From positions 62,001 to 126,000 of the forward strand of contig CAJXSR010000002.1 of NCBI GenBank assembly GCA_913061275.1: a stretch of 64,000 nt of DNA, read 5' to 3'. Position 1 is the first letter of the stretch. Each line of letters starts with the position of its first letter. The position numbers were made by a program, and so were the translations under genes. Below the pieces are notes generated by a model that was not told where the DNA came from, made no database searches, and was given only the letters and a program-made list of their open reading frames with translations. Origin of the DNA: an uncultured Paracoccaceae bacterium. Its GTDB lineage: Bacteria; Pseudomonadota; Alphaproteobacteria; Rhodobacterales; Rhodobacteraceae. Positions 162 through 36,786 of this stretch are shown one piece after another.

Positions 162-208
162 AAAAAATATTGTGTATGGGGCTAACACTCTCCCGAAATG
201 TTAGCCCC
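162..208 (-). terminator. strong hairpin ending the DUF1127/small RNA transcript
   Basis: A perfect 10-bp inverted repeat, GGGGCTAACA (178-187) with TGTTAGCCCC (199-208), has an 11-base loop. On the minus strand a run of six T (162-167) comes about ten bases after the stem, so the uridine tract is not directly adjacent and termination is probable rather than certain. The loop carries GGGAG on the minus strand, complementary to the CTCCC in the two upstream hairpin loops. Confidence 0.5.
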
Positions 209-287
209 AAATGTCAACGGGATCTGGGAGGATTGACCGCTAACGTGCGATGTTGGACTGTCTCTGGGAGGATCGAGCAACAACATC
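162..287 (-). ncRNA. candidate Cuckoo/CcsR-type small RNA downstream of DUF1127 gene
   Basis: On the minus strand, just behind the DUF1127 stop, lie two consecutive hairpins. Hairpin 1 pairs GATGTTG/CAACATC (249-255 with 281-287); hairpin 2 pairs GTCAA/TTGAC (213-217 with 233-237). Each loop presents ATCCTCCCAGA, whose CCUCCC is complementary to a Shine-Dalgarno sequence. The loop motif repeats exactly 40 bases apart (223-236 and 263-276, 13 of 14 identical). A third, longer hairpin (178-208) and a T-run follow. In Rhodobacter sphaeroides the CcsR RNAs (Cuckoo family) have two hairpins with C/U-rich anti-SD loops and are processed from the 3' side of a DUF1127 mRNA. The match here is architecture plus motif; the loops have CCUCCC rather than the full CCUCCUCCC. 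An AT-rich palindrome at 320-337 between stop codon and hairpins could be a processing site (inference). Confidence 0.65.
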
Positions 288-357
288 AGCAATAGTTTCG
301 ACAGGCAAGCTGGCGTTTTATTTTATGGACATAAAATTTGATTTATGTTTTCGGGCA

Positions 358-624
358 TTACAACCCATCATATTCATATTTAATAAGTGATTCAGCGTGG
401 CGTTTGATGTCTTTTCTGGAAAGGCCAACCTTATTTAATTGATAGTCAGACATTGAATTCAAAGCCGAAGATAATCGGTTAATTTTGAATTGCATAAATG
501 ATTTTGATGAGCTTGATTTTACTACGTTTCCAAGTTTTGTTATCAAAGTAAGGGCGCTATTTAATATTTGTTGTGCGTGTGATGATAAATCTAACGGGGT
601 GTAATCAAAGCTGCTTATTTCCAT
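358..624 (-). CDS. DUF1127 small protein
   Basis: This 88-residue protein has the DUF1127 signature near its C-terminus (residues about 52-75): LNSMSDYQLNKVGLSRKDI, corresponding to the family pattern L-x2-LSD-x-QL-x-DIGL-x-R-x-DI. The first 50 residues are Ser/Ala-rich and unassigned. DUF1127 proteins are small, Arg/Lys-rich alphaproteobacterial proteins; some act in RNA turnover and phosphate or stress responses, and in Rhodobacter sphaeroides one (CcaF1) is made from the same transcript as anti-SD small RNAs. The ATG at 624 follows AAAGGA at a good distance. The hairpins at 178-287 lie directly downstream, so the CcaF1-like arrangement is the main clue to its role. Confidence 0.8.
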   Translation of the reverse strand: MEISSFDYTPLDLSSHAQQILNSALTLITKLGNVVKSSSSKSFMQFKINRLSSALNSMSDYQLNKVGLSRKDIKRHAESLIKYEYDGL

Positions 625-837
625 TTAATCAATCCTTTGATTATCTCTCTGATACGAGCTTTTACTAAAAAGACACATAGGACAATGGTGTTTACCTATT
701 ACAATGGATATCATTCAAAACAAATGATAAAATGCCACTTATTTATACTATTTGCTATAAATATGAGCAAAAAATCTATACCAACGTTACCGCAGATCGT
801 CATATAAAATTGTCAAATTTTACTTGAATGCCTGCAA

Positions 838-11631: not shown

Positions 11632-12546
11632 ATGTCAGTTGCAAAGATTTTTAATGCCGTTTCAACAGCCTTAGTCGGCCTTATGGTATCTGGTAGCGCA
11701 TTTGCGCAAGAAGCTATGGAAGTACTTGGAAAGCCGGTTGATAAAGCGATTAACTTTCAAACGCCTGCTACTGAAGTAATGCGCGACATTATCTGGCTGG
11801 ATAATTTTCTACTGGTTATTATTACGGTTATCACAATATTTGTTACGCTATTATTGGCGATTGTTGTGGTGAAATTTAACAGACGTGCAAACCCAGTAGC
11901 AGCAACATTCACACATAACTCTGCCTTGGAAGTCGCTTGGACGATTGTTCCGATCATTATTCTGATTGCAATAATTCCGCCATCTCTAAAACTTCTGTTC
12001 AAGCAACAGGAAATCCCTGCTGCTGACATTACAATTAAAGCTACAGGCAACCAGTGGTACTGGACGCATGAGTATGTGGATCACGGATTTGAATTTGACA
12101 GCTATATGATTGGCCATCCCGCAACATTGGCTGATGATGATGGTGAACAAGCCTTTAAAAAATCACCTGCTGTTATGGCCGCGTTGAAAGAAAACGGCTT
12201 TAACGATGATGAGTTTTTACTGGCAACAGATACATCCGTTGTTGTTCCAGTGAACAAAACAATCGTTGTACAGGTAACGGGCGCAGATGTGATCCATTCA
12301 TGGACGATCCCTGCGTTTGGTGTTAAACAAGATGCCGTTCCGGGTCGTTTGGCGGAACTTTGGTTCAAAGCTGAAAAAGAAGGTGTTTATTTCGGACAGT
12401 GTTCAGAGCTGTGCGGTAAGGATCATACTTATATGCCTATTACTGTAAAAGTTGTGAGCCAAGAAGAATACGAAGCTTGGCTGGACGGTGCAATTACCGA
12501 ATATGCGGGCACACCACGCACAATAACAGTCGCGAACGCAAACTAA
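11632..12546 (+). CDS. ctaC: cytochrome c oxidase subunit II
   Basis: This 304-residue subunit carries the CuA centre that accepts electrons from cytochrome c in aa3 oxidase. It has a signal peptide (MSVAKIFNAV to GSAFA), two membrane helices (about 45-70 and 90-112) and a periplasmic cupredoxin domain. The CuA motif CSELCGKDHTYM and the upstream ligand His in DVIHSW are intact, as is the aromatic QWYWTHEY. The frame is open back to 11473, but ATG 11632 gives a good signal peptide and has a GGA eight bases upstream. It is the first gene of the ctaC-ctaB-coxF-ctaG-ctaE operon. Confidence 0.96.
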   Translation: MSVAKIFNAVSTALVGLMVSGSAFAQEAMEVLGKPVDKAINFQTPATEVMRDIIWLDNFLLVIITVITIFVTLLLAIVVVKFNRRANPVAATFTHNSALEVAWTIVPIIILIAIIPPSLKLLFKQQEIPAADITIKATGNQWYWTHEYVDHGFEFDSYMIGHPATLADDDGEQAFKKSPAVMAALKENGFNDDEFLLATDTSVVVPVNKTIVVQVTGADVIHSWTIPAFGVKQDAVPGRLAELWFKAEKEGVYFGQCSELCGKDHTYMPITVKVVSQEEYEAWLDGAITEYAGTPRTITVANAN

Positions 12547-12600
12547 TAATCCAACCATAACGGGCCTGTGCTGCCCGTTTCATATTTTGGATAGATAACA

Positions 12601-13551
12601 ATGGCAGATGCTAGTGTGATAGAGACTGGACATGAGGCCGATTTTGGCGACTATGTTGCGTTGCTAAAGCCGCGTGTTATGTCTTTGGTTGTTTTTACGG
12701 CTCTTGTCGGGCTGTTGGTGGCACCTGTTTCTGTTAACCCTGTGATTGGCTTTGCATCTATTCTATTTATCGCAATAGGCGGTGGTGCCTCTGGTGCGCT
12801 TAATATGTGGTGGGATGCGGATATTGATGCGGTCATGAAGCGCACACAGGGCCGTCCAGTGCCTTCAGGGCGCGTTACTGGCAACAATGCAATGATATTC
12901 GGGCTTTGGCTGTCGGTCATCGCTGTGCTGATGCTGGGCCTGACCGCAAATTACCTTGCCGCTGGCCTATTGGCATTCACGATCTTTTTCTATGCAGTGG
13001 TTTACACTATGTGGTTAAAACGCTCAACGCCGCAAAATATCGTAATTGGCGGTGCGGCGGGCGCATTTCCCCCAATGATCGGCTGGGCTGTGGCAACGGG
13101 TAGCGTTGGCATCGAAAGTATATTGATGTTCGCCCTTATATTCATGTGGACGCCACCACATTTCTGGGCCTTGGCCCTATTTATGAACCAGGATTATAGC
13201 AAAGCAGGTGTGCCGATGTTGACAGTGACACATGGCAAACGCGTTACACGCAATCATATACTTGTTTATACAATCGCTTTGGTACCATTTGCCTTGGCCA
13301 TTGCGTTTACCAGTATTGGTGGCCCGCTTTATTTTGCTGTTTCATTGGTTTTGAATGCCCTGTTTCTAAAAGGGGCTTATGATATATGGAAGCGACAAGA
13401 AGAACAGGCTGAAACAGATAACTATGCAACAGAACGTAAGGTTTTTCGTATTTCTTTATATTACCTATTCTTACATTTCGCTCTTTTGTTGGTTGAAGCA
13501 ACGGTCAAAGGTTTTGGCTATAATATGGCCGCTTGGCCTCAGTGGATATAA
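12601..13551 (+). CDS. ctaB: protoheme IX farnesyltransferase (heme O synthase)
   Basis: A 316-residue UbiA-family membrane enzyme that attaches the farnesyl group to heme B, the first step to heme A for the aa3 oxidase. The prenyl-diphosphate-binding motif NMWWDADIDAVMKRTQGRP is near residues 66-85, and about nine membrane helices are predicted. The start is preceded by a 54-base gap from ctaC. It is followed three bases later by coxF. Confidence 0.96.
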   Translation: MADASVIETGHEADFGDYVALLKPRVMSLVVFTALVGLLVAPVSVNPVIGFASILFIAIGGGASGALNMWWDADIDAVMKRTQGRPVPSGRVTGNNAMIFGLWLSVIAVLMLGLTANYLAAGLLAFTIFFYAVVYTMWLKRSTPQNIVIGGAAGAFPPMIGWAVATGSVGIESILMFALIFMWTPPHFWALALFMNQDYSKAGVPMLTVTHGKRVTRNHILVYTIALVPFALAIAFTSIGGPLYFAVSLVLNALFLKGAYDIWKRQEEQAETDNYATERKVFRISLYYLFLHFALLLVEATVKGFGYNMAAWPQWI

Positions 13552-35519: not shown

Positions 35520-35703
35520 CTGGTTTTCCCCTTTGGCGCGGTTAGATACATCAATACACACTGGGCAGGAAGTTAACAGAGTTCAGTAGTAATACGGATA
35601 TACGCGGGTAGTACTGCGTGTTGTCATTTACGCACCATAGAACTAAACAGAATCAAGGTTACTGCTGTATAGTGGTGGCCTGTATCCATTTGGGAGGAAA
35701 TAC

Positions 35704-36786
35704 ATGGAACGTCGTAAGTTTTTAACCGGTGCAGCTATTGCTGGTGCCGCTACAACGCTGGCCGCACCTTCGGTTGCTCAAGGTAAAAAAGAAATGGTTA
35801 TTGTGTCCACTTGGCCACGTGACTTCCCAGGTTTGGGATTGCCTGCGCAACGTCTTGCAGCACGCATCACTGAACTGACAGACGGTGAGATTGATGTGAA
35901 ATACTTCGCTGCCGGCGAACGCGTTGGTGCGTTTGACAGCTTTGACGAAGTTGCATCTGGCAACGCACAAGCCTATATCGCCGCTGACTACTACTGGAAG
36001 GGTAAGCATCCAGGTTGGGCTGCATTTACTGCTATCCCGTTCGGTCTGACATACACAGAAATGGACGCTTGGATCAAATATAGTGGCGGCCAAGAATTGT
36101 GGGATGAAATCGCTGGCGAATTTGGTCTGAAAAACTTTGCTATGGGCAATACAGGCGTTCAAATGGGCGGTTGGTTCAACAAAGAGATGAACTCTGCTGA
36201 TGACTTCAAAGGTTTGAAAATGCGTATTCCTGGTTTGGGCGGCGACGTTCTATCAAAACTAGGTGCATCTCCTGTGTCACTACCTGGTGGTCAAATTTAT
36301 GAAAACCTTACATCTGGTGCGATCGATGCAACAGAGTGGGTTGGCCCATATAATGATTACTTCATGAAGTTCTATGAAGCTGCGAAATACTACTATTTCC
36401 CAGGTATGCACGAGCCAGGCGCACAGCTTGCAATGGGCATGAACAGTGAATTCTGGGGTGGTCTATCTGACAACCACAAAGCCATCGTTCAAGCCGCGTG
36501 TAACGAAGAAAATGCACGTACAATGGCAGAAACCAATGCAAACAACGGTAAATTCCTAAATAAATTGGTTAATGAGCATGGCGTACAAGTACGCGAGTTC
36601 AATGACGATGTTTATGATGCATTTGGTGAAGCTGCGGCAGAAGTCATGGAAGAAGCCCGTGATCACAGCCCATTGGCCAAGAAGATTATGGATGCTGTTG
36701 CAGATGCGCGCGCTGAAATCGGTGCATGGACTGCTTTGTCAGACATGTCATACGTGCAAAAGCGTAACCGCGTAATCAACGGTTAA
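35704..36786 (+). CDS. TRAP transporter substrate-binding protein (DctP; TakP-like)
   Basis: The 360-residue periplasmic protein has a twin-arginine signal (MERRKFLTGAAIAGAATTLA, AAPSVAQG). It resembles the TakP/TTHA0766 group that binds 2-oxo acids or calcium-lactate: GERVGAFDSFDEVASGNAQA, PFGLTYTEMDAWIKYSGG and ATEWVGPYNDYFMKFYEAA match the conserved substrate-pocket segments. The ligand is inferred from family likeness only. GGGAGGAAA lies before the start. A hairpin follows before dctQ, probably favouring a higher level of this component. Confidence 0.92.
   Translation: MERRKFLTGAAIAGAATTLAAPSVAQGKKEMVIVSTWPRDFPGLGLPAQRLAARITELTDGEIDVKYFAAGERVGAFDSFDEVASGNAQAYIAADYYWKGKHPGWAAFTAIPFGLTYTEMDAWIKYSGGQELWDEIAGEFGLKNFAMGNTGVQMGGWFNKEMNSADDFKGLKMRIPGLGGDVLSKLGASPVSLPGGQIYENLTSGAIDATEWVGPYNDYFMKFYEAAKYYYFPGMHEPGAQLAMGMNSEFWGGLSDNHKAIVQAACNEENARTMAETNANNGKFLNKLVNEHGVQVREFNDDVYDAFGEAAAEVMEEARDHSPLAKKIMDAVADARAEIGAWTALSDMSYVQKRNRVING

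Follow-up and report, generated by a model that had tools for sequence, protein, structure and literature searches.

A predicted Cuckoo/CIN1-like anti-Shine-Dalgarno RNA behind a divergent DUF1127-like gene in Amylibacter

The minus strand of a 64-kb window from an uncultured bacterium, very probably an Amylibacter (Rhodobacterales; Paracoccaceae in the NCBI taxonomy), carries what, judged from its sequence, is a real and conserved anti-Shine-Dalgarno (aSD) RNA of the Cuckoo/CIN1-like type that is linked to a DUF1127-like gene (Table 1). The window is the whole stretch of DNA that was analysed and constitutes one part of a 3.39 Mb assembly in 56 contigs. The identification draws on the presence of the element, its predicted structure and covariation, the fact that it is better conserved than the coding gene, the DUF1127 linkage and a bias among matching target sites. 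Very probably, the DUF1127-like gene and the small RNA downstream of it form a single unit of the Cuckoo/CIN1 kind that would act on the ribosome-binding sites of mRNAs.

Table 1. Features of the DUF1127-like gene and the downstream RNA element in the window
Feature	Position	Strand	Basis
Divergent DUF1127-like small-protein gene, 88 aa	358..624	-	ORF; Pfam DUF1127 E 0.02, below cut-off; homologs in two Amylibacter species
A/U-rich spacer between gene and hairpins, 66 bases	292..357	-	Sequence
Hairpin 1: outer stem and CUC/GAG closing pairs, loop GAUCCUCCCA	246..291	-	RNA folding
aSD motif 1, ATCCTCCCAGA	263..273	-	Motif count
Hairpin 2: 8-bp outer stem, three inner pairs, loop CUCCCA	213..244	-	RNA folding
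aSD motif 2, ATCCTCCCAGA	223..233	-	Motif count; ATCCTCCCAGAT identical at 12/12 bases in three species
Third stem-loop, terminator-like, 14 pairs in MFE	177..209	-	RNA folding
CGGGAGAG at the tip of hairpin 3	188..195	-	8/8 bases identical in three species
Block AATAGGTAAACACCATTGTCCTA ahead of the gene, conserved	678..700	-	Partly common to two other species and a second copy on contig C27

Only two copies of the motif ATCCTCCCAGA exist in the whole 64 kb, both on the minus strand and 40 bases apart, against an expectation of 0.02, and none of 100 shuffles gave two copies. RNA folding placed the CUCCCA core of both motifs in a terminal loop, and in hairpin 2 the AUC and GAU that flank the core within the motif are base-paired to one another. 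The first-pass annotation had described two minus-strand hairpins at exactly this spacing with aSD sequence in their loops, which motif count and folding together confirm; it was also right that the loops hold CCUCCC rather than a longer motif, as both hairpins have a single CCUCCC and lack CCUCCUCCC. The fold of the stretch 357-158 reached -54.7 kcal/mol (z -4.3) and was equalled in stability by none of 200 shuffles. Of the 189 hairpins with at least nine contiguous pairs on both strands of the window, the third hairpin is the only one whose tip shows GGGAG. Comparison with Rfam yielded no family at the gathering threshold anywhere in the window; for the region 100-700, a relaxed limit of E 10 gave two chance-level matches (E 0.36 and 9.2), neither of which is relevant.

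The short gene (624-358) lies upstream of the hairpins and is co-directional with them, and the spacer that separates them is a possible RNase E processing region. In two relatives this spacer is far shorter, with hairpin 1 beginning about 15 nt past the stop codon. The block at 700-678 is a possible promoter element; no clear -35/-10 pair was seen in it, and a sigma-70 scan of positions 100-900, which also brought up no promoter of a stress type, detected no sigma-70-like promoter upstream of the gene on the minus strand and none at the RNA. A UUUUUU run starts 9 nt past the third stem, no U-run being located directly behind the third hairpin, and a simple terminator scan was silent across the RNA and did not call this hairpin. 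Strong stems directly behind a gene and the lack of a separate promoter would also suit hairpins that are no sRNA and instead belong to the DUF1127 mRNA, as its terminator or as a structure that stabilises its 3' UTR. We consider this quite improbable, since across the family the loop motif stays constant while the stems change and since one relative (L050) has an array of twelve such hairpins.

A protein search of the genome contigs for named relatives gave no match. A DNA pattern search of the genome contigs found six loci, two of them from Amylibacter and four labelled otherwise. Among three Amylibacter species, the RNA element is identical at 94/109, 90/109 and 103/109 positions in the three pairwise comparisons (86, 83 and 94%), as against 177/267, 151/255 and 168/255 (66, 59 and 66%) for the gene in the same comparisons. 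The 150-base flanks are identical at 56, 50 and 61% of aligned positions upstream and at 57, 49 and 43% downstream, and neither the upstream nor the downstream neighbour gene of the window unit was found near the copies of the relatives (tblastn, 8 kb around each). Because the non-coding stretch changes less than its own coding gene, a function at the RNA level is strongly supported. In the third stem, three of the 14 pairs changed on both sides and 100% of the cells are paired. Hairpin 2 showed two one-sided changes only, and hairpin 1 showed one one-sided change together with two broken cells in this fold. These figures come from only three sequences, and 12 of 500 shuffles reached the observed covariation score. 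The covariation which the first-pass annotation had expected in the two aSD stems of close relatives was thus found in part: in the three species all double changes fall in the third stem, whereas hairpin 1 covaries over more distant loci.

This wider family was approached from the gene and from the RNA separately. A protein profile matched 17/33 genus genomes at E up to 0.001 (own genome and profile seeds included) and 25/394 family genomes at E up to 1e-5 (own genome included). A covariance model built from the three close RNAs and searched without the gene matched 7/33 genus genomes at E up to 0.05 and 11/394 family genomes at E up to 0.01, again with the own genome included; at the thresholds used, the window-type element is not universal in the family. 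Outside the own genome the RNA model hit 12 places in the 394 family genomes, 11 of which lie directly behind a DUF1127-like gene, and nine of these 11 coincide with loci found independently by the protein profile. In genomes G184 and G149 the DUF1127-like ORF directly upstream was recognised by eye, and for G184 it is also backed by a pairwise match. One candidate RNA locus (L088 in G228) was discarded as a false positive of the model inside coding sequence. The eight places matched in the genus comprise the three seeds, four places behind DUF1127 loci and contig 36 of genome G005, where three aSD hairpins are present and a DUF1127 gene was not seen. Counting by motif, 23/56 DUF1127 loci have two or more CCTCC in the 250 nt downstream on the gene strand, compared to 1/56 on the opposite strand and 2/56 in the 250 bases upstream; the 56 loci (L001-L065 minus eight second copies and L017, which has no downstream sequence) are not independent and some are seeds. 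Gene-plus-RNA architecture is kept in the family, and an RNA-only model re-found DUF1127-linked loci.

Hairpin 1 is the most constant part of the element: CTCGCTCCTCCCAGAG, or a sequence near it, was found in 20 hairpins of 19 loci. Its outer stems comprise 15 distinct arm pairs in which 101 of 105 positions are paired, whereas 2000 permutations gave a mean of 50.7 and a maximum of 78. Only motif-matching hairpins were counted here, 10 of the 29 loci given being without such a motif. The arms are the best over linker lengths, so that 14/20 reach seven pairs and 6/20 reach six; with the same best-arm choice at random positions, 278/5000 reach seven and 1442/5000 reach six. The stem of hairpin 1 covaries around a constant loop across loci. 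Conservation, covariation and the DUF1127 linkage leave practically no room for chance repeats without function, an explanation for which we found no point in favour.

Many related loci have CCUCCUCCC in at least one hairpin, and within one genus the number of aSD hairpins ranges from one or two up to twelve. The largest array lies on contig C1 of Amylibacter genome G031 (L014/L050), where six similar tandem pairs make up twelve aSD hairpins with 19 CCTCC behind a DUF1127 gene (863837-864079, minus strand). Genomes G015 and G004 have three aSD hairpin pairs behind a DUF1127 gene, and at L012, L018 and L089 two tandem DUF1127-like genes precede the aSD hairpins (partly by eye). Recurrent TGCAG/GCAGC sequences, which by eye resemble LysR operators, were noticed upstream of hairpins or DUF1127 genes at L013, L075, L081, L082 and L089; the stretch 900-625 of the window contains one TGCAG and no GCAGC.

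The encoded protein is a weak match to Pfam DUF1127 (15 bits, with the cut-off at 23.3). Its homologs in the two other Amylibacter species share 63% and 51% identity, and in the family alignment six of eight members match the DUF1127 model at E up to 0.1. The placement of the hairpins behind a DUF1127 gene, as proposed in the first-pass annotation, thus holds for the position of the gene, while the domain assignment stays below the Pfam threshold for the window protein and is shared by most of its relatives at the relaxed level. DUF1127 proteins elsewhere act via protein contacts with PhoR, and the excerpted text of the same study states that no RNA binding was found for Salmonella YjiS (PMC12501420). 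Since DUF1127 proteins act in this way elsewhere, a role of the window protein in RNA metabolism is not a given.

The loop motif of the CcsR RNAs of Rhodobacter sphaeroides is CCUCCUCCC, and the CCUCCC loops of the window differ from it. The genome studied here has five CCTCCC pairs (one in the window, three on contig C40 and one at C8:86289-86335) and none for the reversed control. On contig C40, a second DUF1127 gene encodes a CcaF1-like protein of 69 aa (Pfam 40 bits). Its match is a DUF1127-like protein of 71 aa from another genus, whose gene has five aSD hairpins behind it. The C40 locus (L002, about 12480-13010) consists of the CcaF1-like gene, three aSD hairpins upstream that end in a T-run and two downstream. 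BLASTP gave no alignment between the window protein and the CcaF1-like protein of C40. Contig C27 carries, within positions 1-400 (L017/L098), a second copy of the window paralog together with its upstream region (75% identity over 55 residues), which is cut short by the contig end so that its RNA lies out of view; no second DNA match that would continue it was detected in the own genome. Because CCUCCUCCC is absent from its loops and another contig of the genome holds a CcaF1-like gene that has aSD hairpins of its own, the window RNA was rejected as the counterpart of CcsR/ccaF1. The CcsR/Cuckoo assignment made at first consequently survives as a DUF1127-linked aSD architecture of the Cuckoo/CIN1-like kind, and the window is most likely a divergent paralog unit.

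In R. sphaeroides, CcaF1 is co-transcribed with CcsR1-4 from an RpoHI/RpoHII promoter (PMC10253847), and the CcsR RNAs are matured by RNase E and CcaF1 (PMC8625941). This CIN1 locus of the Cuckoo family has the same arrangement of a short DUF1127 gene followed by co-directional hairpins and belongs to the same order, Rhodobacterales (PMC10253847). Its hairpins, like those of the window, have aSD loops. The two differ in that the window has two aSD hairpins plus a GGGAG stem-loop where R. sphaeroides has four sRNAs, and in that the window protein is divergent and has 88 aa compared to the 71 aa of CcaF1. Traits shared with Cuckoo/CIN1 RNAs are the tandem hairpins with aSD loops, the co-directional short DUF1127-like gene upstream and stems that vary by compensatory change while the loop stays constant (hairpin 1 over 19 loci, hairpin 3 in three species); the likeness is only partial in hairpin 2 with its one-sided changes and fails for the loop sequence. 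The absence of CCUCCUCCC from the loops makes the window RNA, as predicted, a Cuckoo/CIN1-like variant and not a canonical member. Rhizobia possess the alpha-r14/NfeR1 and SmelA075/SmelA099 RNAs with the same modular aSD-loop hairpins, variable stems and several copies per genome (PMC3927594, PMC10746234). The rhizobial loops read CCUCCUCCC, unlike those of the window. For NfeR1, a 123-nt transcript that has three such hairpins and does not depend on Hfq has been described (PMC10746234). A third comparison is offered by Caulobacter, in which the alpha-R8 sRNAs SisA-D have the same CCUCCC core and the sponge CrfA matches it by a G/A-rich stem-loop (PMC12559287). There the core is a single-stranded stretch and the sponge a separate RNA, while in the window the core is a hairpin loop and the complementary loop would be part of the RNA itself.

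That the GGGAG of the third loop is complementary to the CUCCC of loops 1 and 2, as had been pointed out from the sequence, was borne out by a predicted duplex of -10.0 kcal/mol with either aSD loop, compared to -8.7 kcal/mol for the SD consensus. Opening costs were 0.0-0.1 kcal/mol for CUCCC (three hairpins tested) and 0.1-2.0 kcal/mol for GGGAG (four hairpins tested). The third loop complementary to the first two is possibly a new part of such RNAs. It could act as a built-in sponge, in which GGGAG of hairpin 3 would pair with CUCCC of loops 1 or 2 in the same molecule or in sister RNAs and so limit activity until a partner or a cut frees the loops. Besides the energies, this somewhat unlikely explanation has a precedent in trans in CrfA, which sponges UUUCCUCCCU sRNAs in Caulobacter (PMC12559287). 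It also agrees with the distribution of GGGAG over 30 folded regions, which were picked for CCTCC content so that the presence of aSD motifs in them is not itself evidence. GGGAG is present in all three species of the window clade and in 8/9 loci of a second clade, which consists of nine loci of eight genomes, each genome of its own genus; among the remaining 18 regions it occurs only at L026, outside its hairpins, and 17 are without it. The excess is nevertheless modest and clade-bound (12/30 regions compared to 4.9 expected from shuffles, in regions that are not independent), and the pairing columns never vary, so that covariation cannot test the pairing. In the second clade, GGGAG is part of a middle segment, CAGGGAGCGCC, with 10/11 columns invariant in an alignment that leaves out L044 (a further copy in G069 whose hairpin 1 equals that of L025); L023 has GGGAA. 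The MFE folds of this clade place GGGAG in or beside a hairpin loop in only 5/9 loci, and in one of these five (L021) it is paired. As a ribosome-binding site of a small ORF the GGGAG of this clade was rejected, an ATG at the same place being present in only 3/9 sequences. At L045, GGGGGGAG stands ahead of the first aSD hairpin, outside the stretch counted for GGGAG.

There is an even chance that the third loop is an ordinary one, in which CGGGAG forms a stable C(GGGA)G tetraloop of the GNRA type that caps the terminator and is kept for its stability, without pairing to the aSD loops. Such a tetraloop is present in the centroid fold with one bulged base, and this bulged base is the sole position of the tip at which the species differ (U to A). 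It accounts less well for the rest of the family: GGGAG is found at the tip of the last stem-loop in the window clade only, the last aSD hairpin, by reading of the folds, having CCTCCTCCC in 15/30 regions and other loops elsewhere, and the second clade keeps its conserved segment in the middle and not in such a tetraloop. The recurrence in both clades suggests that a complement of the seed may have been fixed twice in the family. Taken further, some Cuckoo-type RNAs would carry their own antidote, a GGGAG segment for binding the CUCCC seed loops, either in cis or on sister RNAs, that arose at least twice, at the tip of the third stem-loop in the window clade and in the middle segment of the second clade; we put this forward tentatively, as an unlikely but specific proposal. 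In the open-access literature we found no report of CcsR sponging in Rhodobacter, nor of kissing-loop formation, self-sequestration or autoinhibition in aSD sRNAs.

Transcription, processing, repression of targets and the role of the protein are the parts of the scheme that we infer. Probably the RNA either is the 3' end of the message of the DUF1127-like gene as transcribed or is released from it by cleavage, and the DUF1127 protein may assist in processing as CcaF1 does in R. sphaeroides. Hairpins 1 and 2 would hold CUCCCA in open loops for pairing with Shine-Dalgarno regions of the type UGGGAGGA, and this pairing would keep a set of mRNAs from being translated, of which many encode the solute-binding proteins of ABC and TRAP transporters.

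Candidate target sites in the own genome were collected for three motifs, with ORFs shorter than 60 aa left out of all three sets. The pattern TGGGAGG-N(2-12)-ATG gave 24 sites (23 distinct) versus 8 for the reversed pattern, and 15 distinct ORFs behind them reach 60 aa, of which seven encode solute-binding proteins of the periplasm (three DctP, two SBP_bac, one Peripla_BP_6 and one phosphonate-binding). For AAGGAGG there were 30 sites versus 8 reversed, and none of the 20 ORFs encodes a solute-binding protein, although four of them specify other ABC-transporter components (L130, L139, L148, L149); the difference between 7/15 and 0/20 has a one-sided Fisher value of 0.001. AGGGAGG yielded 18 sites versus 1 reversed, with solute-binding proteins in 4/12 ORFs. 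Because AGGGAGG sites show the bias too, it does not point to the window RNA alone, and the matching sites may in fact be used by other aSD sRNAs of the cell. Within the window, TGGGAGGAAATACATG (35691-35706, plus strand) is the site of a DctP-type gene. A bias of this kind agrees with the targets known for aSD sRNAs: NfeR1 of the alpha-r14 family silences mRNAs by covering the translation start with its three aSD motifs, and its confirmed targets are two mRNAs for ABC-transporter periplasmic components and ntrB (PMC10746234). Elsewhere in the own genome, four genes within about 7.5 kb (C20:59354-66882; L112, L161-L163) have (A/T)GGGAGG before each ATG. Their domains are cytochrome c, SoxA/TsdA, molybdopterin oxidoreductase and flavocytochrome c, and they are possibly a sulfur-oxidation cluster under the control of aSD sRNAs.

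These findings extend the pairing of a DUF1127 gene with an aSD RNA to a divergent paralog lineage in Amylibacter and suggest transporter solute-binding proteins as a target class. They also raise the idea that an aSD sRNA can contain a sequence complementary to its own seed; if the antidote reading is true, such an RNA would be a self-limiting aSD regulator.
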